Part shown: positions 1,077 through 48,310 of the stretch, one piece after another | Position numbering within the stretch: the stretch's first letter is position 1 | Layout: each line of letters opens with the position of its first letter | From: Sandaracinus sp. | GTDB taxonomy: Bacteria > Myxococcota_A > Polyangia > Polyangiales > Houyiibacteriaceae | Direction: 5' to 3' | NCBI GenBank assembly: GCA_002699025.1 | Contig: PABA01000203.1 | Location: 1-64,000 of the forward strand | DNA length: 64,000 nt | Notes under the pieces: generated by a model | The model's database searches: none | What the model was told of the DNA's origin: nothing | Seen by the model: only the letters and a program-made list of their open reading frames with translations | Program-made: the position numbers and the translations under genes

Positions 1077-1455
1077 CGCCGCCTCCCGCCGACGCGTCGC
1101 TCCCCCCACGCCGACGCGAAGCATCGACGGACCGAGAGGGAGAGGCGTTCCGGCTGACTCATGACCGAGGGTGGGCCCCCCATCCGGGGAAGGCCGCGCA
1201 TCCCAACAGGCTGCGGTCACCCGGAGTCGACCGCAAGACCGCGAGATGGATGGGCACGGATTTTTCCACCCCAAATGTGCACGTCCTTCTCGACGTGGCC
1301 GGGGAAGCTTCGGTATCCTCCGGGTCCTGGCGAATCGTTGACATCTGCGAGTCTCCGATGCGTCAATCGTGGTGGATGGGGAGTCGAGCGCTGGTGAGCG
1401 CCGCTCCCGGGTGTGTGTGGGCCGGTGAGATCACCGGGCTTTTTTGGGGGATGGA
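1077..1455. other. Divergent intergenic region
   Basis: About 380 bp between the minus-strand GIDE-like gene and the plus-strand kinase. It should hold both promoters. The only clear element I see is a TTGACA at 1338-1343 on the plus strand, with no good -10 at 16-18 nt. No gene or RNA is recognised. Confidence 0.4.
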
Positions 1456-3231
1456 GTGACGACGGAAGCGCCGAAAGACGCGAAGGCCGACGCGGCCGAT
1501 CCCGGCGAGGGATCCGCCGACGCCGACGCGCCCGACGCCGCCGACGCGCAGGCGAAGAAGCCTCCGCCCGCCCCCTCGGGCCGCCGGAAGAAGGGCCCCG
1601 ATCCGCTGATCGGGCGCGTCATCAACGACCGCTTCCGCATCACCTCGGTCATCGCCCGCGGCGGCATGGGCAAGGTCTACCGCGCCGAGCAGGCCCCCTT
1701 GGGCCGCGAGGTCGCCCTCAAGATCCTCAACCCGAACTACAGCGGCGAGCACGACCCCGAGTTCCACAAGCGCTTCTTCCTCGAGGCGTCCATCTGCGCG
1801 AAGCTCACGCACCCGAACACGGTCACGATCTTCGACTACGGGCGCACGGACGACGACGTCTACTACATCGCGATGGAGCTGCTGGAGGGCCGCACGCTCC
1901 ACCGCACGCTCCGGGACGAGAGCCGCCTCCCCGCCGAGCGCGCGATGCACGTCGCCCGCCAGGTCTGCCGCAGCCTCCGCGAGGCGCACGGCCTCGGCGT
2001 CATCCACCGCGACCTGAAGCCCGCGAACATCTTCCTGGTCAAGCACGGCGACGAGAAGGACTTCGTCAAGGTGCTCGACTTCGGCCTCGTGAAGGACCTC
2101 GAGAAGCAAGAGGACCTCACGCAGACGGGCCTCTTCATGGGCTCGCCGAAGTACATGTCGCCGGAGCAGATCCGCGGCGAGAAGGTCGACGCCCGCTGCG
2201 ACGTCTACGCCCTCGCCGTCATCCTCTACGAGATGCTCTGCGGCAAGGTCCCCTTCGACCGGCCGAACTCGGTGAACATCCTCATGGCGCACGTCCATGA
2301 GAAGCCGCCCTCGATGAACGACCTCGTGCCCGAGGCGGCCATCGATCCGCGCCTCGAGCAGGTCGTCATGAAGGGCATGGCGAAGAACGCGGACGAGCGA
2401 TACGGCAGCATGGACGAGTTCCTCGTCGCGCTGAAGCAGACCGCGGCGCAGAGCGGCCTGGCCGTGTCGCGCTCCGGCGAGACCGCGCTCAGCGGCGAGT
2501 TCGCCATCTCCGGCGGGTCCACGGGCTCCTACCCCTCCGTGCAGATCACGGGCGAGGGCAGCGGCAGCGTGCCGAACGTGACCCCGAGCGGCGCGCTCCA
2601 GCCGCCGATCGCCCAGGACGACTCGATGACGACCGGCGACCCGTTCGCCGATCCGAACCGCAAGGGCAAGGGCATCCTCTTCGCCGGCGCCGTCCTCCTG
2701 CTCGCCGCCCTCGTCGGCGGCTACTTCGCCCTCAGCGGCGACGAGGAGCCGAGCGAGCCCATCGCCGACAGCTCGACCACCGAGACCGAGCCCGAGCCGC
2801 CCGAGCCGGAGCCGCCGACCATGGAGGCCACCATGGAGGCGGCGAGCACCATGGAGGCGAGCGCCATGGGCGGCGAGGCCGCCGGCACGGGCATGGACGA
2901 GGTCGCCCGCCTCCGCGTGACCCTCCGCTCCGAGCCCGCCGGCGCGACCGTGGTCGTCGGTGAGCACGAGTACGGTCCGACCCCGGCCGAGGTCGAGTGG
3001 ACCGGCGAGGAGGCCGCGATGGGCCGCGAGGTCACCTTCCAGTTCCAGCTGGCGGACCATCGCGACTTCACCGTCACCCGCACCCTCGTCGGCGAGGACA
3101 TCACGGTCGAGGCCACCCTCGATCCGATCCGCCGCCGCCGCTGGCGTCGCCCGACGACGCCGATGATGACTTCGTCCATGGGGGACAGCCCCTCCATCGG
3201 CATCAAGGGCTACAAGCTCGAGCCCTACTGA
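1456..3231 (+). CDS. Membrane-anchored Ser/Thr protein kinase with PEGA-like tail
   Basis: 591 aa, PknB-like. An Ala/Asp-rich N-terminus (1-50) precedes a Hanks-type kinase domain (about 60-326) with glycine loop ARGGMGKVY, ATP lysine in VALK (K89), HRDLKPAN (catalytic D186) and DFG (D208), then GSPKYMSPEQ as the activation/P+1 segment. One membrane helix (about 407-426) separates it from an acidic linker with repeated MEA motifs and a C-terminal beta domain containing RSEPAGATVVV, typical of PEGA domains. It probably senses envelope conditions. The GTG at 1456 is preceded by GGGGG at 5 nt; a TTG at 1444 is possible. A GC hairpin without a T-run follows at 3236-3253. Confidence 0.9.
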   Translation: MTTEAPKDAKADAADPGEGSADADAPDAADAQAKKPPPAPSGRRKKGPDPLIGRVINDRFRITSVIARGGMGKVYRAEQAPLGREVALKILNPNYSGEHDPEFHKRFFLEASICAKLTHPNTVTIFDYGRTDDDVYYIAMELLEGRTLHRTLRDESRLPAERAMHVARQVCRSLREAHGLGVIHRDLKPANIFLVKHGDEKDFVKVLDFGLVKDLEKQEDLTQTGLFMGSPKYMSPEQIRGEKVDARCDVYALAVILYEMLCGKVPFDRPNSVNILMAHVHEKPPSMNDLVPEAAIDPRLEQVVMKGMAKNADERYGSMDEFLVALKQTAAQSGLAVSRSGETALSGEFAISGGSTGSYPSVQITGEGSGSVPNVTPSGALQPPIAQDDSMTTGDPFADPNRKGKGILFAGAVLLLAALVGGYFALSGDEEPSEPIADSSTTETEPEPPEPEPPTMEATMEAASTMEASAMGGEAAGTGMDEVARLRVTLRSEPAGATVVVGEHEYGPTPAEVEWTGEEAAMGREVTFQFQLADHRDFTVTRTLVGEDITVEATLDPIRRRRWRRPTTPMMTSSMGDSPSIGIKGYKLEPY

Positions 3232-3336: not shown

Positions 3337-6033
3337 GTGCAGCAGCTACTTCGACGCCTCGCGCTCCCGGCGGTCATCGCCGTCGTCACGCTCTCCTTCA
3401 CCCAGACGGCCTTCGCGGATGTGCGAACGGAGGCACGCCGCCACTTCCGTCGCGGCATGCAGCTCATCGCAGACGGCAGCCTCGACGAGGGCATCGAGGA
3501 GCTCGAGCTCGCCTACGAGACGCTCCCGCACCCGAACGTCCTCTACAACATCGGCCGGGCCTACGCCGAGGCCGGTCGCTACCAGGACGCCCTCGAGTAC
3601 TTCGAGCGCTACCTCGCCTCCGACCCGCCGGACCGCGAGGACGTGATCGGCTTCATCGACGCCATCGAGGCGCGCCTCGCCGCCACCCAGCCGGAGCCGA
3701 CGGAGACGGCCCCGGAGCCGACGGAGGCGCAGCCCGAGCCCATCGTCGAGACCAACGTGAGCGACGAGGAGATCGTCGCCATCGAGGAGTCCGCCACGCA
3801 GATCGAGGCGCTCGCCGAGGCGACGCAGAGCGACGCGCTGCGCGAGCGGGCCGCCCGCCTGCGGCAGCTCGCGGCGAACCTCCGCGAACGCTCCGAAGCC
3901 CTCGCGGCGCAGGAGGCGGCGGCCGCGGAGGCTGCCGGCGGCGGCGAGGAGACCGGCGGCGGCGAGGAGACCGGCGGCGGCGAGGAGACCGGCGGCGGCG
4001 AGCAGGTGGCCACCGGCGGCGGCGAGGAGACGGGCGGCGAGCTCGAGCTCGGCGCGCAGCGTACGGAGGTCTTCGAGGAGGAGGTCGTCTCCGCCTCGCG
4101 TTTCGCCGAGTCCCCGCTCGACGCGCCGAACTCGACGCACATCATCACCCGGCAGGACATCCGCCTCACCGGCCTGACCGACATCAGCGCCCTCCTCCGC
4201 CGCGTCGCCGGCGTCGAGGTCATGCAGCACTACCCGGGCCACACGGACGTGAACATCCGCGGCCTCGGCCAGCGCCAGAGCAACAAGACCCTCTTCCTGG
4301 TCGACGGACGCATGACGCGCCTCGACTTCCTGGGCATGTCCTGGGTGCAGATGCTCCCGATCTCGGTCGAGGACATCGAGCGGATCGAGGTCATCCGTGG
4401 TCCGGCCGCCGCCGTCTACGGCGCCGACGCCTTCTCCGGCATCGTCAACATCATCCTCCGCGAGCCCGGCGAGAACGAGAACTACGTCCGCGGCTCGGGC
4501 GGCAGCCAGGCCTTCGGGCGCCTCGCCGCCTCGGTCAGCGGCCGCACCGAGAACTTCGGCATGCGCATCAGCGGCGGCTACCAGCGCATGGACCACTTCG
4601 AGAACCTCATCGACCCCGAGCGGGTCGACTACGGCACGGCCGACATCGTCTCGGACCCGGAGCTGGGCATCGAGCGGCTCTGGTTCAACGGTGACCTCCG
4701 TTTCCGCGTCGGCGACGGCTTCGTCATCCGCGCGGGCGCGGCCGTGAACCAGGGCGACGGCACCATCCAGGGCATCAGCCGCCTGCGGCAGACCCAGGCG
4801 CAGAACTCGGTCTTCTCCCAGTCCTACCTCAGCATCACGACCCCCGTCGGCATCGGCCTCCGTACCTACTGGAACCGCTTCAGCACGGACGTCGATGGCT
4901 TCGAGGAGCCCCCCGGCGCGCTCCCCACCGTCGGCGACCTCCGGCAGGACATCGTCGACACGGAGCTCAACTTCAACCGCCAGTTCGAGCTCGGCATCCC
5001 CCAGAACCTCTCCATGGGCGTCGGCTACCGCTTCAAGGACGTCGAGTGGGACTGGATGAACGACGACCAGACCGAGCACCACTTCTTCGGCTACCTCCAG
5101 GACGCCCTCCAGCTCCACGAGACGCTCCGCCTCACGCTCAACGTCCGCATCGACCGGCACCCGCTCCTCGACGGCGTCCAGTTCTCGCCGCGTGGCTCGA
5201 TCGTCTGGCGCTTCATCGAGGGCAACTCGCTCCGCTTCACGGGCGGCACGGCCTTCCGCTCCCCGGCCTTCCTCGAGAGCTACCTCGAGTTCGAGAACCG
5301 CACGCCGCTCCGGGGCGTGACGACCATCGGCCAGGGCAACCAGGACCTCGATCCCGAGCGCATCATCAGCTTCGAGCTCGGCTACATGAACCAGGCGACG
5401 GACTTCTTCGCCCTCGAAGCGAACGTCTACTACAACCTCGTCTTCGACCAGATCCAGCTCGCCGCCATCGACACCTTCACGCTCCAGGACTGGGGCAGCG
5501 GCGCGATCGAGTACGACGAGGGCAAGGAAGCCTTCGCGGTCGGAAACCTCCAGTTCGACAACGAGAACGCGACCTTCCGGCAGATCGGCGGCGAGCTCGG
5601 CGTCCGCGTGTTCCCCGTGGACGGTCTCGATATCTACGCGAACTACGCCTACCACGACACCGAGCCGACCGATCAGAGCGACTTCCAGGAGACGCCGGTC
5701 CGCGGCCAGGACGAGCGCACCTCGGCGCACAAGATCAACGCCGGCATCCAGTACCGCTCCCCCATCGGCCTCGACTTCAACATCGACGTCCACTGGGTGA
5801 GCGACCAGGTCTGGGTCGAGCAGGTCACGGACGCGACCCGCGGCGTCGGCTTCCAGCAGTTCCCGCTCGACGGCTACACGCTGCTCAACGCCCGCGTCGG
5901 CCTCCGCCTCTTCGACGACAAGCTCGAGCTCGGCATCACGGGCACGAACCTCACGTTCCAGCGCGTGCGCCAGCACCCGTTCAGCGTCCCCGTCGACACC
6001 CGGATCATCGGCTCCGGCATCTTCCGCTTCTGA
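3337..6033 (+). CDS. TonB-dependent outer-membrane receptor with N-terminal TPR region
   Basis: 898 aa. A signal peptide ending TAFA (about 1-27) is followed by a TPR-like region (28-115, with NVLYNIGRAYAEAGRYQDAL and EYFERYL), a helical acidic linker, five GGGEET-type repeats (about 203-235), a TonB-box-like stretch EEEVVSASR, a plug domain (about 262-385, with VDGR and IEVIRGPAAAVYGADAFSG) and a 22-strand-type barrel ending in F (GIFRF). It imports an unidentified ligand using TonB/ExbBD energy. The fused TPR region is unusual and may bind a periplasmic partner. It starts at GTG and lies 15 bp before a paralogue, probably in the same operon. Confidence 0.92.
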   Translation: MQQLLRRLALPAVIAVVTLSFTQTAFADVRTEARRHFRRGMQLIADGSLDEGIEELELAYETLPHPNVLYNIGRAYAEAGRYQDALEYFERYLASDPPDREDVIGFIDAIEARLAATQPEPTETAPEPTEAQPEPIVETNVSDEEIVAIEESATQIEALAEATQSDALRERAARLRQLAANLRERSEALAAQEAAAAEAAGGGEETGGGEETGGGEETGGGEQVATGGGEETGGELELGAQRTEVFEEEVVSASRFAESPLDAPNSTHIITRQDIRLTGLTDISALLRRVAGVEVMQHYPGHTDVNIRGLGQRQSNKTLFLVDGRMTRLDFLGMSWVQMLPISVEDIERIEVIRGPAAAVYGADAFSGIVNIILREPGENENYVRGSGGSQAFGRLAASVSGRTENFGMRISGGYQRMDHFENLIDPERVDYGTADIVSDPELGIERLWFNGDLRFRVGDGFVIRAGAAVNQGDGTIQGISRLRQTQAQNSVFSQSYLSITTPVGIGLRTYWNRFSTDVDGFEEPPGALPTVGDLRQDIVDTELNFNRQFELGIPQNLSMGVGYRFKDVEWDWMNDDQTEHHFFGYLQDALQLHETLRLTLNVRIDRHPLLDGVQFSPRGSIVWRFIEGNSLRFTGGTAFRSPAFLESYLEFENRTPLRGVTTIGQGNQDLDPERIISFELGYMNQATDFFALEANVYYNLVFDQIQLAAIDTFTLQDWGSGAIEYDEGKEAFAVGNLQFDNENATFRQIGGELGVRVFPVDGLDIYANYAYHDTEPTDQSDFQETPVRGQDERTSAHKINAGIQYRSPIGLDFNIDVHWVSDQVWVEQVTDATRGVGFQQFPLDGYTLLNARVGLRLFDDKLELGITGTNLTFQRVRQHPFSVPVDTRIIGSGIFRF
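3937..4044 (+). repeat. In-frame 18-bp tandem repeat encoding GGGEET
   Basis: About five copies of an 18-bp unit (ggcggcggcgaggagacc and variants) encode the Gly-Glu-rich linker between the TPR part and the plug of the first receptor. The unit length is a multiple of three, so copy changes would alter linker length without frameshift. The paralogue downstream lacks it. Confidence 0.85.
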
Positions 6034-6048
6034 TCGCGATCGCTTCTC

Positions 6049-8733
6049 ATGACGCCCGTCTCCCAGCCTCGACGCCGCTCCGCGGCCGGCGCCGCCCTCT
6101 CCGTGGCGCTGGTCCTGCTGATGGCGCCGTTCGCCCGAGCGGACGTGCGCACGGAGGCGCGGCGTCACTTCCGCCGCGGCATGCAGCTCATCGCAGACGG
6201 CAGCCTCGACGAAGGCATCGAGGAGCTCGAGCTCGCCTACGAGACGCTCCCGCACCCGAACGTCCTCTACAACATCGGCCGCGCCTACGCCGAGGCCGGT
6301 CGCTACCAGGACGCCCTCGAGTACTTCGAGCGCTACCTCGCCACGGACCCGCCCGATCGTGAAGACGTGATCGGCTTCATCGACGCCATCGAGACGCGGA
6401 TCGCCGCCGCGCAGCCCGCCGCGGCGGAGGGCGGCGAGGGCGAGGCGGAGCCCACCACCACGACCGGCGGCCCGGAGCTCCCCGTCGGGGCCGCGGCCAC
6501 CGACGACGAGATCGCCGCCCTCGAGGAGTCGGCCGCGCAAATCGCGCAGCTCGCCGAGGCCACCCAGAGCGAGTCGCTCCGGGCGCGGGCCGCTCGCCTC
6601 CAGGAGCTCGCCCAGCAGCTCCGCGACGCCGGAGAAGGCCGCGCCCCCGCTCCGACCGGGGGTGGCGCGACCGCCGAGGGGGGTGGGGAGCCCGGCGACG
6701 AGGTGCTGCCCGAGCTCGAGCTCGGGGGCGAGCGCGAAGAGGACATCTACGCCGAGCAGGTCGTCTCGGCCTCACGCTTCGCCCAGTCGCCGCTCGACGC
6801 GCCGAACGCCACCACGAACATCACGCAGCAGGACATCCGCCTCTCGGGCCTGACCAACATCGGCGAGCTGCTCCGGCGCGTGCCGGGCGCAGACGTCATG
6901 ACGCTGACGCCCTCCGACGTGTCGGTCAGCTTCCGCGGGTTCAACCAGCGCCTCTCGCCGCGGACCCTGGTGCTCATCGACGGACGCTCGGTCTACATCG
7001 ACCCGCTCGGCGCCACCTTCTGGGGCATCCTCCCCTTCAACGTCGAGGACGTGGAGCGCATCGAGGTCATCCGCGGCCCGGCCTCTGCGCTCTACGGCGC
7101 CGACGCCTTCTCGGGCATCGTCAACATCCTCACGCGCCCGCCCGGCGAGCCGCGCACCCGGGTCGTGCTCGGCGGCGGCAACGCCGGGCGCGTCCACGGC
7201 CACGTCTCGACCTCGGGGAGCGAGGGCGCCTTCGCCTACCGCGTGGCGGCCGGCTACAACCGGCAGGACCGCTTCACCCGCGAGGTCTCCGACGAGCGCG
7301 TCGACCACGAGTTCACCTTCCCCGAGTCGCGGAACATCGGCGTCAACACCGCCCACCTCAACGCCTCCGCGCGCTACCGGCTGAGCCGCGAGGTCGAGAC
7401 CTACCTCCAGGGCGGCTTCAGCTCGAACCAGCAGAACTTCCAGGGCACGGGCCCGCTCCGCGACTTCCTCTCGCAGGGCCCCTACTCGCACCTCATGGCG
7501 GGCCTGACCTCGAGCTGGGGCTCGGTCCGCTTCTTCTGGAACCGGGTCAACGCGGACGCCGGCCTCCCCGCGCCCGTGCTCGGCGGCGACTCGCTCCGCG
7601 GCGAGTTCGACTGGAACACCTACGACGTCGAGGCCGAGCTCGCGCGGGAGTTCCACTTCCTCGTCGACCACAACCTGCACATCGGCGCGAGCTACCGGCG
7701 CAAGCAGATCGACTGGGCCTACCTGAGCGACGAGCAGTTCGAGAACCACGGCGCCGTCTTCTTCCAGGACACGCTGACGATCCTCGACAAGCTCATCCTC
7801 GTCGCCAGCTTCCGCACGGACTTCCACCCGCTCCTCGACAAGCCGATCTTCTCGCCGCGCGGCGCCGTCGTCGTTCGCCCCACCGCGGGCTCGGCGATCC
7901 GCGCGTCGGTCGGCACGGCCTTCCGCACGCAGACCTTCCTCGAGAGCTACCTGCAGCTCCAGAACCCGACGCCCCTCGACGGCGTCAGCGTCCTCTCCCT
8001 CGGCTCGGAGCCGGGCGCGCAGCGGCTCGGTACCCCGCGCCTCGACCCGGAGCGCATCCTCTCGGCCGAGCTCGGCTACCGGAACGACGAGAGCGACTAC
8101 TTCGACGTCGAGGTGAGCGCCTACTACAACCGCGTCACCGACCTCGTCATCCTCTCGCAGATCCGCCCCTTCGCCCTCTCCGACTTCGGCGCGGAGGACA
8201 GCCCGGCGGGCTACGACGAGGGCGTCGCCAGCTACCCGATCGGCACCATCGGCTTCATCAACGACCCGTCCGAGTTCGACGTGGTCGGCGGCGAGATCGC
8301 GGCGCGCATCTACCCGGTGACGGGCCTCGACATCTACGCGAACTACGCGCTGAACCAGGCCTTCGTCACCAACAGCACGCTCCCGAACGGGCAGACGCTG
8401 CGCGAGGACGAGGAGCGGACGAGCACGCACAAGCTGAACCTCGGCATCCAGTACCGCTCGCCCTTCGGCCTCGACATCGCCCTCGATTTCCACTGGGTGA
8501 GCGCCCAGGACTGGCTCGAGCAGGCCTTCGACGCCGAGGAGGGCGTGCGCTTCCAGAACTTCCCGCTGGACGCCTACTACCTGCTCAACGCCCGCGTCGG
8601 ACAGCGCCTCTTCGACGACCAGCTCGAGCTCGGCCTCTCCGTCTTCAACCTCACCAACAACAAGATCCGCCAGCACCCCTTCGGTCAGCGCCTCGAAGCC
8701 CGCGTGCTGGGCACCGTGGCCTACAGCTTCTGA
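6049..8733 (+). CDS. Second TPR-TonB-dependent receptor, paralogue of the preceding gene
   Basis: 894 aa. It has the same architecture as the gene before it: signal peptide ending PFARA, TPR-like region (about 33-118) almost identical to that of the first receptor, linker, TonB-box-like EQVVSASR, plug with VLIDGRSVYIDPLG and IEVIRGPASALYGADAFSG, and a barrel ending VAYSF. Plug and barrel diverge clearly from the first copy while the TPR part stays nearly the same, also at DNA level. It probably takes a related but different ligand. It starts 15 bp after the first receptor and ends 10 bp before the lipoprotein gene, so all three are likely co-transcribed. Confidence 0.92.
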   Translation: MTPVSQPRRRSAAGAALSVALVLLMAPFARADVRTEARRHFRRGMQLIADGSLDEGIEELELAYETLPHPNVLYNIGRAYAEAGRYQDALEYFERYLATDPPDREDVIGFIDAIETRIAAAQPAAAEGGEGEAEPTTTTGGPELPVGAAATDDEIAALEESAAQIAQLAEATQSESLRARAARLQELAQQLRDAGEGRAPAPTGGGATAEGGGEPGDEVLPELELGGEREEDIYAEQVVSASRFAQSPLDAPNATTNITQQDIRLSGLTNIGELLRRVPGADVMTLTPSDVSVSFRGFNQRLSPRTLVLIDGRSVYIDPLGATFWGILPFNVEDVERIEVIRGPASALYGADAFSGIVNILTRPPGEPRTRVVLGGGNAGRVHGHVSTSGSEGAFAYRVAAGYNRQDRFTREVSDERVDHEFTFPESRNIGVNTAHLNASARYRLSREVETYLQGGFSSNQQNFQGTGPLRDFLSQGPYSHLMAGLTSSWGSVRFFWNRVNADAGLPAPVLGGDSLRGEFDWNTYDVEAELAREFHFLVDHNLHIGASYRRKQIDWAYLSDEQFENHGAVFFQDTLTILDKLILVASFRTDFHPLLDKPIFSPRGAVVVRPTAGSAIRASVGTAFRTQTFLESYLQLQNPTPLDGVSVLSLGSEPGAQRLGTPRLDPERILSAELGYRNDESDYFDVEVSAYYNRVTDLVILSQIRPFALSDFGAEDSPAGYDEGVASYPIGTIGFINDPSEFDVVGGEIAARIYPVTGLDIYANYALNQAFVTNSTLPNGQTLREDEERTSTHKLNLGIQYRSPFGLDIALDFHWVSAQDWLEQAFDAEEGVRFQNFPLDAYYLLNARVGQRLFDDQLELGLSVFNLTNNKIRQHPFGQRLEARVLGTVAYSF

Positions 8734-8743
8734 GGAACCGCGA

Positions 8744-10651
8744 ATGCGAAAGACCCTGCGACACTCCTGGCTCCTTCTGACCGCTTTCGCTCTGGCGGCG
8801 TGCGGCGACATCCCCGTCGACGACTTCCGCTCCGAGGGCGGCGCCTCGCCCGACCCGACGGGCGTCATCCAGGGCACCATCCTCTACTCCGGGCCGCGGC
8901 CGGTCTGCGAGTACGACGAGGTGACCGGTGACCCGACGCGGGTGCTCGGGCGGGTCGTCCTGACGCTCTTCGTCTTCGACAACCCGCCGCCGCCGGACGG
9001 CAGCGCGACGGGCGCGGCGAACCTGCTCACGGTGCCCGGTCAGCTGCTCTTCACGACGCTGAACGACTGCCTGCCGCAGGACGCGACGCCGGAGCAGCGG
9101 GCCGAGTTCATCGTGCGCTCGGTCGAGTTCACCTGGCCGGAGATCCCGCTCGGGGACGGGGGTCCCCTCGGCTACCAGATCCGCGGCTTCTACGACTACG
9201 ACGAGGACTTCATCCCGTTCTTCGGCATCACCCGGCTCGGCACGGCCGGGGACATCGCCGGCGGCGCCTTCGTCGACCCGAACGCGGCCGTCCGCGAGTT
9301 CCGCGAGATCCGCTTCGGCGCCGCGCAGGACCGGCCGAACGGCGAGGTCATCGGCGGCATCAGCGTGGCCCTCGGCGCGCCGATCAACACGGAGCTCCCG
9401 GCCTTCCGCCTCACCGGCGATCCGCTGAACGCCGAGGAGGTCCTGCCGACCTCCGATGACCCGATCGTCCGCGAGAACGACCTCTACGACAACACGAACA
9501 CCCGGCTCGAGATGTTCTCCCGGAACCCGGACGACGAGCAGACGGCGGCGCTGATGAGCGCCATGGACGTGGGCGGCCTCGCGCTGAACACGGCCAACGA
9601 GTTCGCCTACGCCTGGTACGTCCGCCCGGTGAACGTCGACGACAACCCGGAGGAGCAGGACCTGCACCCGATCCTCGGCTCGGCGAACATCCCCTGGTAC
9701 TTCCCGATCGTCCTCCAGCAGCGGGTCCAGAACGAGATCGAGGTCGCCGCCGGGGTGCCGAGCGTGCTCCTCGTCCCGACCGTGCGGCCGACGCAGGTGC
9801 TCAACAAGGAAGTGTTCTACCCGAACATCGACATCGCGATCGCGCCGGTCGGGGCCGTGTCGACGGCCGCCGACGACCGCTGCACCTTCCCCTACATCCC
9901 GCCCGGCAACACCACGGCGAACTACGAGCGCATCCCCGTCGACTGCCAGGAGGTCCCGGCCGGCTTCTACGCGACGAACGTGCTCCAGGGTCTCGCCGGC
10001 GCCCTGCCGGCCGGCGGGGGTGTCCGCGAGTGCGACGCCGGCGCGCCCGGCATCGGCGACCCCTGCGTCTCGGACACCCAGTGCGAGCCCTTCGGGCTGG
10101 TCTGCAACAACGCGGGCGAGTGCGCCGCATGCCGGACGGGCGCCGCGTGCCAGGACGGCCGCTGCCAGGTGCTCAACCTGATCTCCGACACGCAGCGGAA
10201 CCTCATCGGCGGCCAGTACTCCTCGCAGAGCTGGGCCGTGCCCAACGCGCTCGGGGACCCGAGCCAGGTCGGCGAGGACGCCGCCGTGGCCAGCCAGGGG
10301 CCCGAGGGGCTCTACGTGGTCTACGACCCGAACCCGGAGGGCCCCGTGGGTCGCCAGGGCGGCCGCGCCGGCTGCGACCGAGCCGTCGACCCGGCAGACG
10401 GCATGGAGCGCGACATCGTGTACCAGACCTTCGAGACCGCCTACGGCGACGCCGCCGCGGAGGTCGAGGAGATCTGCTGTGGCCCGATCGAGCACCTCTG
10501 CGGGCTCCCGCTCTGCGAGGCCATCGACGCCGGCGGCGGCCTGATGATCCGGAGCTCGCCCACGAGCTCGGAGACGGACGACCAGGGGCGCGTCATCCCG
10601 AACTGCGTGCCCTTCGAGATGCCCGCGCTCTGCTGCGGCGCCGCCGGCTGA
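8744..10651 (+). CDS. Large lipoprotein linked to the TonB receptors
   Basis: 635 aa. A signal peptide with lipobox LAAC (Cys20) marks a lipoprotein. The body is mostly beta/coil, with an N-terminal region that could be a carboxypeptidase-like fold (GVIQGTILYSG...). It has a Cys-rich segment at about 425-475 (CVSDTQCEP, CNNAGECAACRTGAACQDGRC) like small disulfide knots in myxobacterial surface proteins, and further cysteines near the C-terminus (EICCGPIEHLCGLPLC, LCCGAAG). Position suggests a surface-exposed partner of the two receptors, by analogy with SusD-like lipoproteins beside TonB receptors, but no SusD similarity is seen. Strong terminator downstream. Confidence 0.85.
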   Translation: MRKTLRHSWLLLTAFALAACGDIPVDDFRSEGGASPDPTGVIQGTILYSGPRPVCEYDEVTGDPTRVLGRVVLTLFVFDNPPPPDGSATGAANLLTVPGQLLFTTLNDCLPQDATPEQRAEFIVRSVEFTWPEIPLGDGGPLGYQIRGFYDYDEDFIPFFGITRLGTAGDIAGGAFVDPNAAVREFREIRFGAAQDRPNGEVIGGISVALGAPINTELPAFRLTGDPLNAEEVLPTSDDPIVRENDLYDNTNTRLEMFSRNPDDEQTAALMSAMDVGGLALNTANEFAYAWYVRPVNVDDNPEEQDLHPILGSANIPWYFPIVLQQRVQNEIEVAAGVPSVLLVPTVRPTQVLNKEVFYPNIDIAIAPVGAVSTAADDRCTFPYIPPGNTTANYERIPVDCQEVPAGFYATNVLQGLAGALPAGGGVRECDAGAPGIGDPCVSDTQCEPFGLVCNNAGECAACRTGAACQDGRCQVLNLISDTQRNLIGGQYSSQSWAVPNALGDPSQVGEDAAVASQGPEGLYVVYDPNPEGPVGRQGGRAGCDRAVDPADGMERDIVYQTFETAYGDAAAEVEEICCGPIEHLCGLPLCEAIDAGGGLMIRSSPTSSETDDQGRVIPNCVPFEMPALCCGAAG

Positions 10652-10713: not shown

Positions 10714-10778
10714 CGGGAATCGCTCGGCGCCGCCCGGGCTTTTTGACCCGGAGGGCCGCCCGCGATATCTCGAACGAC

Positions 10779-11702
10779 GTGACGCCCGCCGTGCTCACAC
10801 CGGGGAACTTCGACGGGGTGCACCTCGGCCACCAGGCCCTCGTGCGCGCCGCCCGGGAGCGCGCCGACGCGGAGGGCTGGCGCGCCGTCGCCATGTTCTT
10901 CGATCCGCACCCCACGGCCTTCTTCCGGCCCGAGGCGGCGCCGCCCCTGCTGACCCAGCCGGCGCGACGGGCCGAGCTCCTCCGGGCCCGCGGCGCGGAC
11001 GCGGTCGACGTGCGGACGTTCGACGCGGCCTTCGCGGCCCAGTCGCCGGAGGCCTTCGTCGAGGACGTCCTGGTGGGCGAGCACCGGGTGCGGGCCATCG
11101 TCTGCGGCCCGGACTTCCGCTTCGGCGCGAAGCGCGCCGGGGACGTGTCCGTGCTGCGGCGCCTCGGCGAGGCGCATGGCTTCGACGTGCGCGTCGTGGA
11201 CCCGGTCCGCGAGGCGGGGGGCGTGGTCTCCTCGACGCGCGTGCGGGGGCTGATCGGCGAGGGCGAGGTGGCCGCGGCGTCGGCGCTCCTCGACCGGTAC
11301 CACGACGTGACGGGCGTGGTGGTGGAGGGCGACCGGCGGGGGCGGACCATCGGCTTCCCGACGGCGAACCTCGCCGGGCCCGAGGACAGCCCGCTCGGTA
11401 TGGTGCCGGCCGATGGCGTCTACGCCGTCATCGCGCGGGCCGACGACGGACCGCCGCTGCGGGGCGTGGCGAACATCGGCGTCCGCCCGACCTTCGAGGC
11501 CGGGCGCTCGCTCGAGGTGCACCTGCTCGACTTCGAGGGGGACCTCTACGGCCGACGCCTGCGCGTGGCCTTCGTGGCGCGGCTGCGCGGCGAGCGGAAG
11601 TTCGACGGGGTCGACGCGCTCGTGGCGCAGCTCGGGCGGGACGTGGAAGAGGGGCGAGCCGCGCTCGACGCGGCCGACGAGGGGCGGCTCGAGTGGATCT
11701 GA
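10779..11702 (+). CDS. ribF: Bifunctional riboflavin kinase/FAD synthetase
   Basis: 307 aa. It makes FMN from riboflavin and ATP, then FAD from FMN. The N-terminal adenylyltransferase half has GNFDGVHLGHQ, FFDPHP and VCGPDFRFG; the C-terminal kinase half has GRTIGFPTANL, DGVYAV, GVANIGVRPTF and the closing LRGERKFD. Length is usual for RibF. The start is not certain: GTG at 10779 puts the nucleotide motif near the N-terminus, while TTG at 10743 or GTG at 10791 are possible. It overlaps the next gene by 10 bp, suggesting coupled translation. Another riboflavin-pathway gene (ribA) lies on the other strand at 21103. Confidence 0.92.
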   Translation: MTPAVLTPGNFDGVHLGHQALVRAARERADAEGWRAVAMFFDPHPTAFFRPEAAPPLLTQPARRAELLRARGADAVDVRTFDAAFAAQSPEAFVEDVLVGEHRVRAIVCGPDFRFGAKRAGDVSVLRRLGEAHGFDVRVVDPVREAGGVVSSTRVRGLIGEGEVAAASALLDRYHDVTGVVVEGDRRGRTIGFPTANLAGPEDSPLGMVPADGVYAVIARADDGPPLRGVANIGVRPTFEAGRSLEVHLLDFEGDLYGRRLRVAFVARLRGERKFDGVDALVAQLGRDVEEGRAALDAADEGRLEWI

Positions 11703-12739: not shown

Positions 12740-12763
12740 AGCGACGGCCTCCCGGCCGTCGCT
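12740..12763. terminator. Bidirectional hairpin between convergent genes
   Basis: Perfect 10-bp stem (12740-12749 with 12754-12763), loop TCCC, between the convergent stops at 12739 and 12762. The right arm includes the stop codon of the PilZ gene. There is no long T-run on either side. Confidence 0.55.
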
Positions 12764-13103
12764 AGCCGATCAGGGTCAGGAAGGTCTCGAGCTGGTGCTG
12801 CTGGAGGGGGCTGAGCTCGCCGAACTGGACACCGATGAGGTGAAGCCCGTCGTCGCGCTCGGCGGACCAGCGGACGGCGCCGCGCGCCTCGAAGGGATCC
12901 TGGTCCGGATCCTCGATGCCGTCCTGGGTCAGAAAGAGGGTCAGGCTCAGCGTCGCGCCGTCGGGGACGGGGTGCTCCATGATCAGGCCGACCCCACCGG
13001 CGGAGAGGTTCTGCGTCGAGACGGCCACCGTCTCGCCCTTGAAGCCGATCTCGCCCGCCACCTCGACGGGGTAGCGTTGATGCTGCCTCTGCTCGTTGCC
13101 CAT
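12762..13103 (-). CDS. Single-domain PilZ protein
   Basis: 113 aa. PilZ domains bind cyclic di-GMP. Both diagnostic motifs are present: RQHQR (RxxxR) near the N-terminus and NLSAGGVG (D/NxSxxG) about 30 residues later, then the beta strands TLSLTLFL, RGAVRWS and LIGVQFGEL. Many such small PilZ proteins in myxobacteria have no attached output domain and act by protein contact. I chose the ATG at 13103, which has an AGGGGCG-type ribosome site; an in-frame ATG at 13136 would add 11 residues. Confidence 0.88.
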   Translation of the reverse strand: MGNEQRQHQRYPVEVAGEIGFKGETVAVSTQNLSAGGVGLIMEHPVPDGATLSLTLFLTQDGIEDPDQDPFEARGAVRWSAERDDGLHLIGVQFGELSPLQQHQLETFLTLIG

Positions 13104-13145
13104 CGACTCGCCCCTGCCGCGCGCCACGCGGCCCATCCGTTCCCA

Positions 13146-46504: not shown

Positions 46505-48310
46505 CTATTCCTCGTCCCGCGGTGGAGTGACGCGCAAGTCCGTCACCTCCCCAGCCCTGAGGTCCACTCGCCCTGTATAGACTTCGCGACCGTCCCGTGT
46601 CACTCGGATCCGCCGTCGCTCGCGGAGCTCCTCCATGGGGACGGGGAGCAGGGCGTTGGTCCGACCGCGCGCGGCGGCGCCCGGGCCTCCGTCGACCTCG
46701 ACGTCGCCGACGAGGCCGCGGACCATGAGGCGCGCCGGGCGGAAGCGGAGCTGGGCGTCGAGGAAGTAGGGGTCGGCGCCCGGGGGGATGCGCCGGTTTC
46801 GGATGACCAGCTCGACGCAGCAGCCGCTCGGGCTGGCGATGGCGAAGCTGTGCGGGCCCGGGTCGAGCTCGACGGAGCGGATGCCGGGTGGGGGGCCGAA
46901 GGGGCGCGCGGGGGCGTCGTCGACGGCGATGGTGACGTTGGCCGGGCGGGGGCGGAAGACGACGGTGCGCTTGCCGGCGGGCGGGCGGAGGATGCGGAGG
47001 CGGGGGCCGCCGTCCGGGGGCGAGGCGGAGCCGGCGTCGCTCGGGCCGGCGTCGGCGGCGCCCGCGTCGGCGGGGCCTGCGTCGGGGGCCGCCGGGGCGG
47101 CGTCGAGGGCACCGGCGTCCCCGAGGACGCCGTCCCCGGCGTCGGTGACGAGGGCGCCGGCGTCGAGGCTGCCGGAGGAGCCGCCGCCGTCCTCGGGCCA
47201 GAGGAGCACGGCGGCGAGGGCGGCGGCGCCGAGGAAGAGGGCGGCGCCGCCGAGCCAGAGGGTGCGCTGGCCGTCGTCGCCGAGCTTGTCGAGGAGCCGG
47301 AGGACCTCCTCGTTGCCCTCGTCGAGGGCGAGGACGCGGTTGAAGCACTCGAGGGCGGCGGCGCGGTCCTTGCGCTCCATGGCCTCGCGGCCGCGGCGGG
47401 TGAGGACGGCGATGGCGTTGTCGCGGAGCTCGGCGGCGACGGCCTCGGGGTCGGCGAGGTAGCGCTCGAGGAGGGCGTCCGGGTCGTCCAGCTCGAGGCC
47501 CTGGAGGAAGGCGAGGAGATCGGCCTCGAGCTCCTCGGCGGAGGCGTGGCGCTCGCCCGGCTCGCGCGCCATGGCGCGGAGGACGATGCGGCGGAGCTCG
47601 CCGCCGATGGCGGGCTGGACGCGGAGCGGGTCGGCGAACTCGGCGTCCATGATGCGCTTGAGCACCTGGTGCGGGTTGCGGCCCGTGAAGGGGAGGCGGC
47701 CGACGGCGAGGAAGTAGAGGACCGTGCCGAGGGAGAAGATGTCGGAGCAGGCGCCGATGTCGCCGCCCTCGACCTGCTCGGGGGCCATGTGGCCGGGGGA
47801 GCCGAGGATCTGGCCGGTGGCGGTGAAGGACTGGGCGTCGACCATCTGGGCGATGCCGAAGTCCGTGAGCTTCACCGTGCGGGCCTCGTGGAAGAGGACG
47901 TTCTCGGGCTTGACGTCGCGGTGGACGATGCCGTGCTGGTGGGCGGTGGCGAGGGCGCGGGCGATCTGGATGCCGATGGCGGCGACGATCTCCGGGGGGA
48001 GCGCGCCGTGGTCCTCGGCGAAGCGCTTGAGGGTCGGGCCCGTGAGGAGCTCGGCGGCGATGTAGGACTCGGGCGAGTCCTCGCCGCTGTAGTCGTAGAC
48101 CTCGAGGATGTTGGGGTGCTTCAGCTTGGCGACGCTGCGGGCCTCGCGGGTGAAGCGGATCCGGGCCTCGGGGGCCTTCTGGAGGTGCGGGTGGAGCACC
48201 TTGACGGCGACGAGGCGGTCGAGGCGCTCGTCACGGCCGCGGAACACGGTCGCCATGCCACCGTGGCCGATCTCTTCGAGGAGCTCGTACTTCTCGAGCT
48301 TGCGCAGCAT
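46505..48310 (-). CDS. Ser/Thr protein kinase with membrane anchor and PEGA-like domain
   Basis: 601 aa. The kinase domain (about 8-270) has EEIGHGGMATVFRG, VAVK (K37), HRDVKPEN (D132), DFG (D150) and GSPGHMAPEQV. A TPR-like pair (about 300-335, REAMERKDRAAALECFNRVL) follows, then a membrane helix (351-371), a Pro/Asp/Ala/Gly linker with repeated DAG and a beta domain (about 450-601) similar to PEGA. It may be a paralogue of the kinase at 1456. The ATG at 48310 has only a weak ribosome site. Confidence 0.9.
   Translation of the reverse strand: MLRKLEKYELLEEIGHGGMATVFRGRDERLDRLVAVKVLHPHLQKAPEARIRFTREARSVAKLKHPNILEVYDYSGEDSPESYIAAELLTGPTLKRFAEDHGALPPEIVAAIGIQIARALATAHQHGIVHRDVKPENVLFHEARTVKLTDFGIAQMVDAQSFTATGQILGSPGHMAPEQVEGGDIGACSDIFSLGTVLYFLAVGRLPFTGRNPHQVLKRIMDAEFADPLRVQPAIGGELRRIVLRAMAREPGERHASAEELEADLLAFLQGLELDDPDALLERYLADPEAVAAELRDNAIAVLTRRGREAMERKDRAAALECFNRVLALDEGNEEVLRLLDKLGDDGQRTLWLGGAALFLGAAALAAVLLWPEDGGGSSGSLDAGALVTDAGDGVLGDAGALDAAPAAPDAGPADAGAADAGPSDAGSASPPDGGPRLRILRPPAGKRTVVFRPRPANVTIAVDDAPARPFGPPPGIRSVELDPGPHSFAIASPSGCCVELVIRNRRIPPGADPYFLDAQLRFRPARLMVRGLVGDVEVDGGPGAAARGRTNALLPVPMEELRERRRIRVTRDGREVYTGRVDLRAGEVTDLRVTPPRDEE

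Follow-up and report, generated by a model that had tools for sequence, protein, structure and literature searches.

What is known of signalling by bacterial outer-membrane receptors mainly concerns STN domains and anti-sigma factors. The Myxococcota carry very numerous eukaryotic-like Ser/Thr kinases, and to our knowledge the signals for most of them are not known. In the FecA-type transducers, an extra N-terminal domain is joined to the plug via the TonB-box loop and contacts an anti-sigma factor at its periplasmic tail (PMC11637429). The locus analysed here resembles those of FecA, FpvA and FoxA in having a TonB receptor with an extra, predicted periplasmic domain ahead of a putative TonB box, and in having as neighbour a gene for a predicted single-pass inner-membrane protein with an extracytoplasmic C-terminal tail. 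Its chief interest is a conserved cassette consisting of a kinase, a TPR-bearing receptor and a lipoprotein.

The locus lies at the start of a contig (C214) in a draft genome of Sandaracinus sp. (9.24 Mb), and the window analysed was a stretch of 64,000 nucleotides. Genes for a Ser/Thr kinase, receptor A, receptor B, a predicted lipoprotein and RibF follow one another on the forward strand (Table 1). With gaps of 15 bp between A and B and 10 bp between B and the lipoprotein gene, at least these three genes probably form one operon. RibF was also found 3' of the lipoprotein gene in many relatives with one- or two-receptor loci, within the flanks fetched. At the contig start, two copies of a 96-bp sequence (1-96 and 326-421) form a direct repeat at 99% identity, and a near-tandem repeat of 90 bp occupies 95-184 and 186-275 (98%). 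A small PilZ-domain protein (PF07238) is encoded on the reverse strand at 12762-13136, and G014 and G043 likewise have such a gene close to the cassette.

Table 1. Features of the two-receptor locus and related genes of the same genome (window positions unless contigs are given).
Feature	Position	Strand	Basis or remark
Membrane Ser/Thr protein kinase	1444-3231	+	Pfam, motifs, TM scan, orthologues at same position in relatives
Receptor A	3337-6033	+	Pfam, AlphaFold model, Foldseek
TPR module of A, residues 28-116, homogenised tract	3418-3684	+	Pfam, identity profile, model
Helical hairpin of A, residues 143-199	3763-3933	+	Model; conserved, not homogenised
TonB-box-like EEEVVSAS of A, directly 5' of plug	4075-4098	+	Sequence
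Plug of A	4117-4443	+	PF07715, 6.2e-22
Receptor B, same architecture as A	6049-8733	+	Pfam; open reading frame
TPR module of B	6142-6408	+	97% identical to that of A
Plug of B	6793-7119	+	PF07715, 1.5e-22
Predicted lipoprotein	8744-10651	+	Lipobox LAAC; without Pfam family
Riboflavin kinase/FAD synthetase RibF	10743-11702	+	3' of lipoprotein
Kinase-adjoining stand-alone TPR-module genes	Contigs C43, C125, C128, C167, C198, C220		

Each receptor begins with a signal peptide, after which come a TPR module and a linker, and then the plug and barrel of a TonB receptor. The full order in A is signal peptide, TPR, helical hairpin, Gly/Glu-rich linker, TonB-box-like motif, plug and beta-barrel. The barrel was recognised by a PF00593 match as well as by the AlphaFold model of A and Foldseek. 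This model (mean pLDDT 82) contained five helices at residues 29-117 and a helical hairpin at 143-199, and then, after linkers, the plug and barrel; the linkers at about 122-139 and 197-253 were disordered. The best Foldseek matches were Cir, PirA, BtuB and PfeA. In the motif EEEVVSAS, the two valines were invariant or nearly so among the aligned receptors (alignment A1). Since this motif adjoins the plug just as the TonB box sits immediately ahead of the plug in BtuB, the TPR module is predicted to be periplasmic and N-terminal to the putative TonB box. The Pfam scan detected no STN domain in the receptors; it gave TPR matches in its place, and the model of this part was all-helical. The linker of A is encoded by 18-bp tandem repeats (3936-4046) specifying (GGGEET)n, and the draft contigs of G002, G006 and G037 end within the receptor linker region.

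The earlier note had called a TPR module fused to a TonB receptor unusual. As regards annotation this stood, for no Pfam or NCBIfam model covers the combination, and the literature, which was partially covered, yielded no description of a TPR-TonB receptor or of a kinase-TonB receptor pair in the phylum; as regards occurrence it did not, for the fusion is common within the phylum and present in many families. It is not a one-off and recurs phylum-wide within the cassette. Among 57 relatives, 22 possessed a full-length receptor together with the lipoprotein, while three more gave weak receptor matches only, without lipoprotein. The more distant families of the order have a single TPR receptor, and in a phylum-wide sample TPR receptors were found in families beyond the class too, so that at least two classes are represented.

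Relatives keep the gene order, with the membrane Ser/Thr kinase first, then one or two TPR-receptors and then the lipoprotein; in G036, G050 and G218 the kinase has moved. A kinase gene was directly upstream on the same strand for 37 of the 45 TPR receptors with enough flank, drawn from several families and at least two classes of the phylum, versus 0 of 13 TPR-less receptors (Fisher p=6e-8, a value which ignores shared ancestry, the TPR receptors being probably one clade). The kinase of the present locus has its catalytic domain at about 1642-2406 (Pfam Pkinase, 1.8e-48) with HRDLK and DFG motifs, one transmembrane segment at about 2674-2730 in the TM scan, and a PEGA match at about 2917-2997 in its extracytoplasmic tail (Pfam, 3.1e-4). 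In all of the complete cassette kinases a single hydrophobic segment followed the catalytic domain, with 110-210 residues beyond it, and HRDxK and DFG were retained in 36 of 37, the exception being a fragment cut at a contig end. PEGA was recognised, above or near the cut-off, in 7 of 10 Polyangiales cassette kinases tested and in 2 of 10 from other classes. At least 150 Ser/Thr kinase matches were obtained in this genome; another such domain lies on the reverse strand of the window (47543-48289), inside an open frame of 1226 residues. The mirror-tree partial correlation between TPR and kinase tail was 0.29 overall, -0.07 for single-receptor loci and 0.47 for the ten A-B genomes; being significant on the full set and not on single-receptor loci, it was not used as support.

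A search of the genome for other genes with this TPR module, as the earlier note had advised, revealed 21 loci besides the receptors, most of which include a signal peptide and none of which encodes a receptor. Six of the 21 start 95-609 bp 3' of a same-strand kinase gene (Table 1), where 0.17 would be expected as computed from 219 candidate kinases (p about 2e-8). TPR and PEGA occurred within one chain in 4 of 6 such proteins examined, and at the A-B locus TPR is carried by the receptors and PEGA by the adjacent kinase. This circumstantial pattern suggests that TPR and PEGA may cooperate.

It is plausible that both receptors have a common periplasmic partner, and the candidate is the membrane Ser/Thr kinase encoded upstream. 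We propose that A and B are duplicates whose plug and barrel may have been specialised for different ligands, and that recurrent gene conversion would hold the N-terminal periplasmic TPR alike within each genome as a transducer for the adjacent kinase; we give this reading an even chance. Weighing against it are the eight TPR receptors that have no kinase beside them and the failure to recognise PEGA in most of the kinases from other classes. The putative contact of the TPR would be the extracytoplasmic tail of the PEGA-tailed kinase encoded just upstream. An occupied or transporting receptor may alter the presentation of its TPR to this tail, and TonB-driven transport or ligand binding would thereby shift the TPR-tail contact and alter the cytoplasmic kinase activity. 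The kinase would relay the signal, and the downstream lipoprotein would probably aid ligand capture at the surface. Convergence of two receptors on one kinase would favour TPRs that both stay matched to it, and this would explain why conversion has persisted in the TPR while plug and barrel show none. The TPR-kinase contact, the direction of signalling and the ligands are what we infer. More tentatively, and with somewhat less than even confidence, these receptors may be kinase-coupled TonB transducers throughout the phylum, in which the TPR would inform a single-pass Ser/Thr kinase about the state of ligand or transport; two receptors would serve one kinase in part of the order, with recurrent conversion keeping the shared, kinase-facing domain identical.

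The near-identical TPR parts described for A and B in the earlier note were confirmed, with 97% identity between the domains at the protein level and 94% at the DNA level, and the segments 3415-3705 and 6139-6429 were 92% identical in DNA without gaps. For the plugs and barrels, which the note had described as strongly different, protein identity was 61% and 40%, and for the linker it was 43%. Exact runs of 68, 60, 38 and 30 nt were shared in the TPR, and the longest outside it was 22 nt. The claim that silent positions are alike as well fared less well. Codons for the same residue differed at 13/85 (15%) in the TPR and 79/328 (24%) elsewhere (p=0.053), and fourfold sites at 9/44 versus 70/193 (p=0.03), which is weakly in favour; the barrel alone, with 41/207 same-residue codons differing, came near the TPR value and thus close to the equality that the earlier note had named as refuting its claim. 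Codon bias in this genome sets a ceiling of about 26% on silent differences, and because these are saturated by it the silent-site test, including this comparison of TPR and barrel, has little power in this pair. The earlier note had left the choice between gene conversion and constraint at the DNA level; conversion is now favoured over constraint alone, and the proof comes from the relatives and not from the silent sites of this pair.

The A-B tandem was present in ten genomes (G000, G005, G006, G007, G010, G013, G014, G035, G043 and G015). In G015 it is divided between two overlapping contigs, and an assembly artefact was considered, the contig break being in the TPR of B; since the two contigs share an identical overlap of 99 bases and, of 150 positions at the start of B, 5 are different in A, the two copies are distinct and real. 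In the plug+barrel tree, A and B formed two fully supported clades with largely parallel inner branching, and pairing of each A with the B of the same genome was rejected. In the TPR DNA tree, A and B of the same genome were strongly supported sisters in G000, G010, G015 and G035, the four copies from genus g6 (G005 and G013) formed one group, and a constraint holding the A genes together was rejected (p-AU 2e-8). In the sliding comparison, the within-genome excess was restricted to residues 26-115, where no A/B signal remains. For the TPR, 4 of 9 genomes had their own paralogue nearer than every orthologue; for hairpin, plug and barrel this held in 0 of 9. Silent codon differences were 5/72 in the TPR versus 101/308 elsewhere in G015 (p<1e-5) and 16/83 versus 131/350 in G035 (p=0.0009). 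TPR silent sites were saturated in 5 of 9 pairs; in G005, G007, G010, G013 and G014 the TPRs were 83-92% alike in protein with silent sites apparently saturated, and conversion there would therefore be old or indirect. Homogenised silent sites were thus clear in G015 and G035, borderline in the A-B pair of the window and absent from the other pairs. Since plug and barrel follow the gene and the TPR in four lineages follows the genome, the TPR module alone has been repeatedly homogenised, most simply through gene conversion. Not every genome is affected, as homogenisation was almost absent in G043. The homogenisation itself is shown by the tree conflict, and we infer recombination as the mechanism behind it.

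Conversion could also act passively, the tandem copies recombining most often in the TPR because it is the longest well-conserved stretch; the sharing would then be without function, and the TPR would bind something general, for instance a component of the TonB complex or the cell wall. No other block of high DNA identity is as long as the TPR, two tandem genes that have diverged and lie 2.7 kb apart make good recombination substrates, and eight TPR receptors are without a kinase alongside. However, plug residues 346-375, with an identity of about 86% both inside a genome and from one genome to another, were not homogenised, and the hairpin (146-190) is conserved and follows orthology. The constant absence of a kinase beside TPR-less receptors, together with the adjoining of kinases by other TPR modules of the genome, also speaks against passive conversion, which we consider rather unlikely.

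Less likely still is a reading in which the TPR serves the lipoprotein, the Bam machinery or TonB in assembly or targeting, and the kinase regulates expression or is merely co-transcribed. TPR domains are frequently scaffolds, and the lipoprotein was present in 22 of 22 relatives with the receptor and absent from the others among the 57, which would agree with such a module. Against this, a TPR is present in just 2 of 11 plug proteins of the same genome, the other receptors doing without it, and the association with kinases recurs for TPR proteins which are not receptors. In the lipoprotein, the lipobox cysteine (Cys20) was invariant in the alignment and no Pfam family was found. Its model was mainly beta (pLDDT 81), and identification from the fold was tried; the search gave no clear PDB match usable for this, and SusD was not among the fold matches. 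Parallel co-evolution without conversion, in which both TPRs would track the same changing partner and come to resemble each other in protein, fits the five pairs with saturated silent sites and is very improbable, since silent sites are alike too in G015, G035 and, weakly, G000, with exact runs of 60-86 nt, and dozens of identical lineage-specific residues would be hard to attain in parallel.

Taken together, the analysis favours specialised duplicates with a TPR shared through conversion, and suggests an outer-membrane-to-kinase signalling route of which the literature covered has no description. If a conserved cassette links such a kinase with a TonB receptor, one group of these kinases would gain a defined input and a route for testing it. 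Domain-specific conversion is in addition a natural experiment, which marks the part of the receptor that is to stay common against the parts free to diverge.

Compared with known systems, A and B differ from FecA, FpvA and FoxA in that the extra domain is a TPR instead of STN, that the membrane neighbour is a Ser/Thr kinase instead of an anti-sigma factor with an ECF sigma factor, and that one domain sequence is common to two receptors. No anti-sigma or ECF sigma factor was found beside the receptors, the neighbours being the kinase and the lipoprotein without Pfam match; membership in the FecA/FpvA family was rejected, as both the STN domain and the anti-sigma neighbour were looked for and absent. 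With Cir, BtuB and PfeA they share plug and beta-barrel, whereas those receptors have neither TPR nor kinase neighbour; the identity to receptors of this kind, about 20%, does not allow the ligand to be read. As in SusC/SusD and BtuB/BtuG, a lipoprotein gene lies 3' of the receptor gene, but the lipoprotein here is without SusD or BtuG similarity, and the TPRs, which in SusD-like proteins are in the lipoprotein, are here in the receptor. The stand-alone TPR and TPR-PEGA proteins of the same genome, unlike A and B, have no plug or barrel; they possess the same TPR module, and several of them are likewise encoded 3' of a Ser/Thr kinase.
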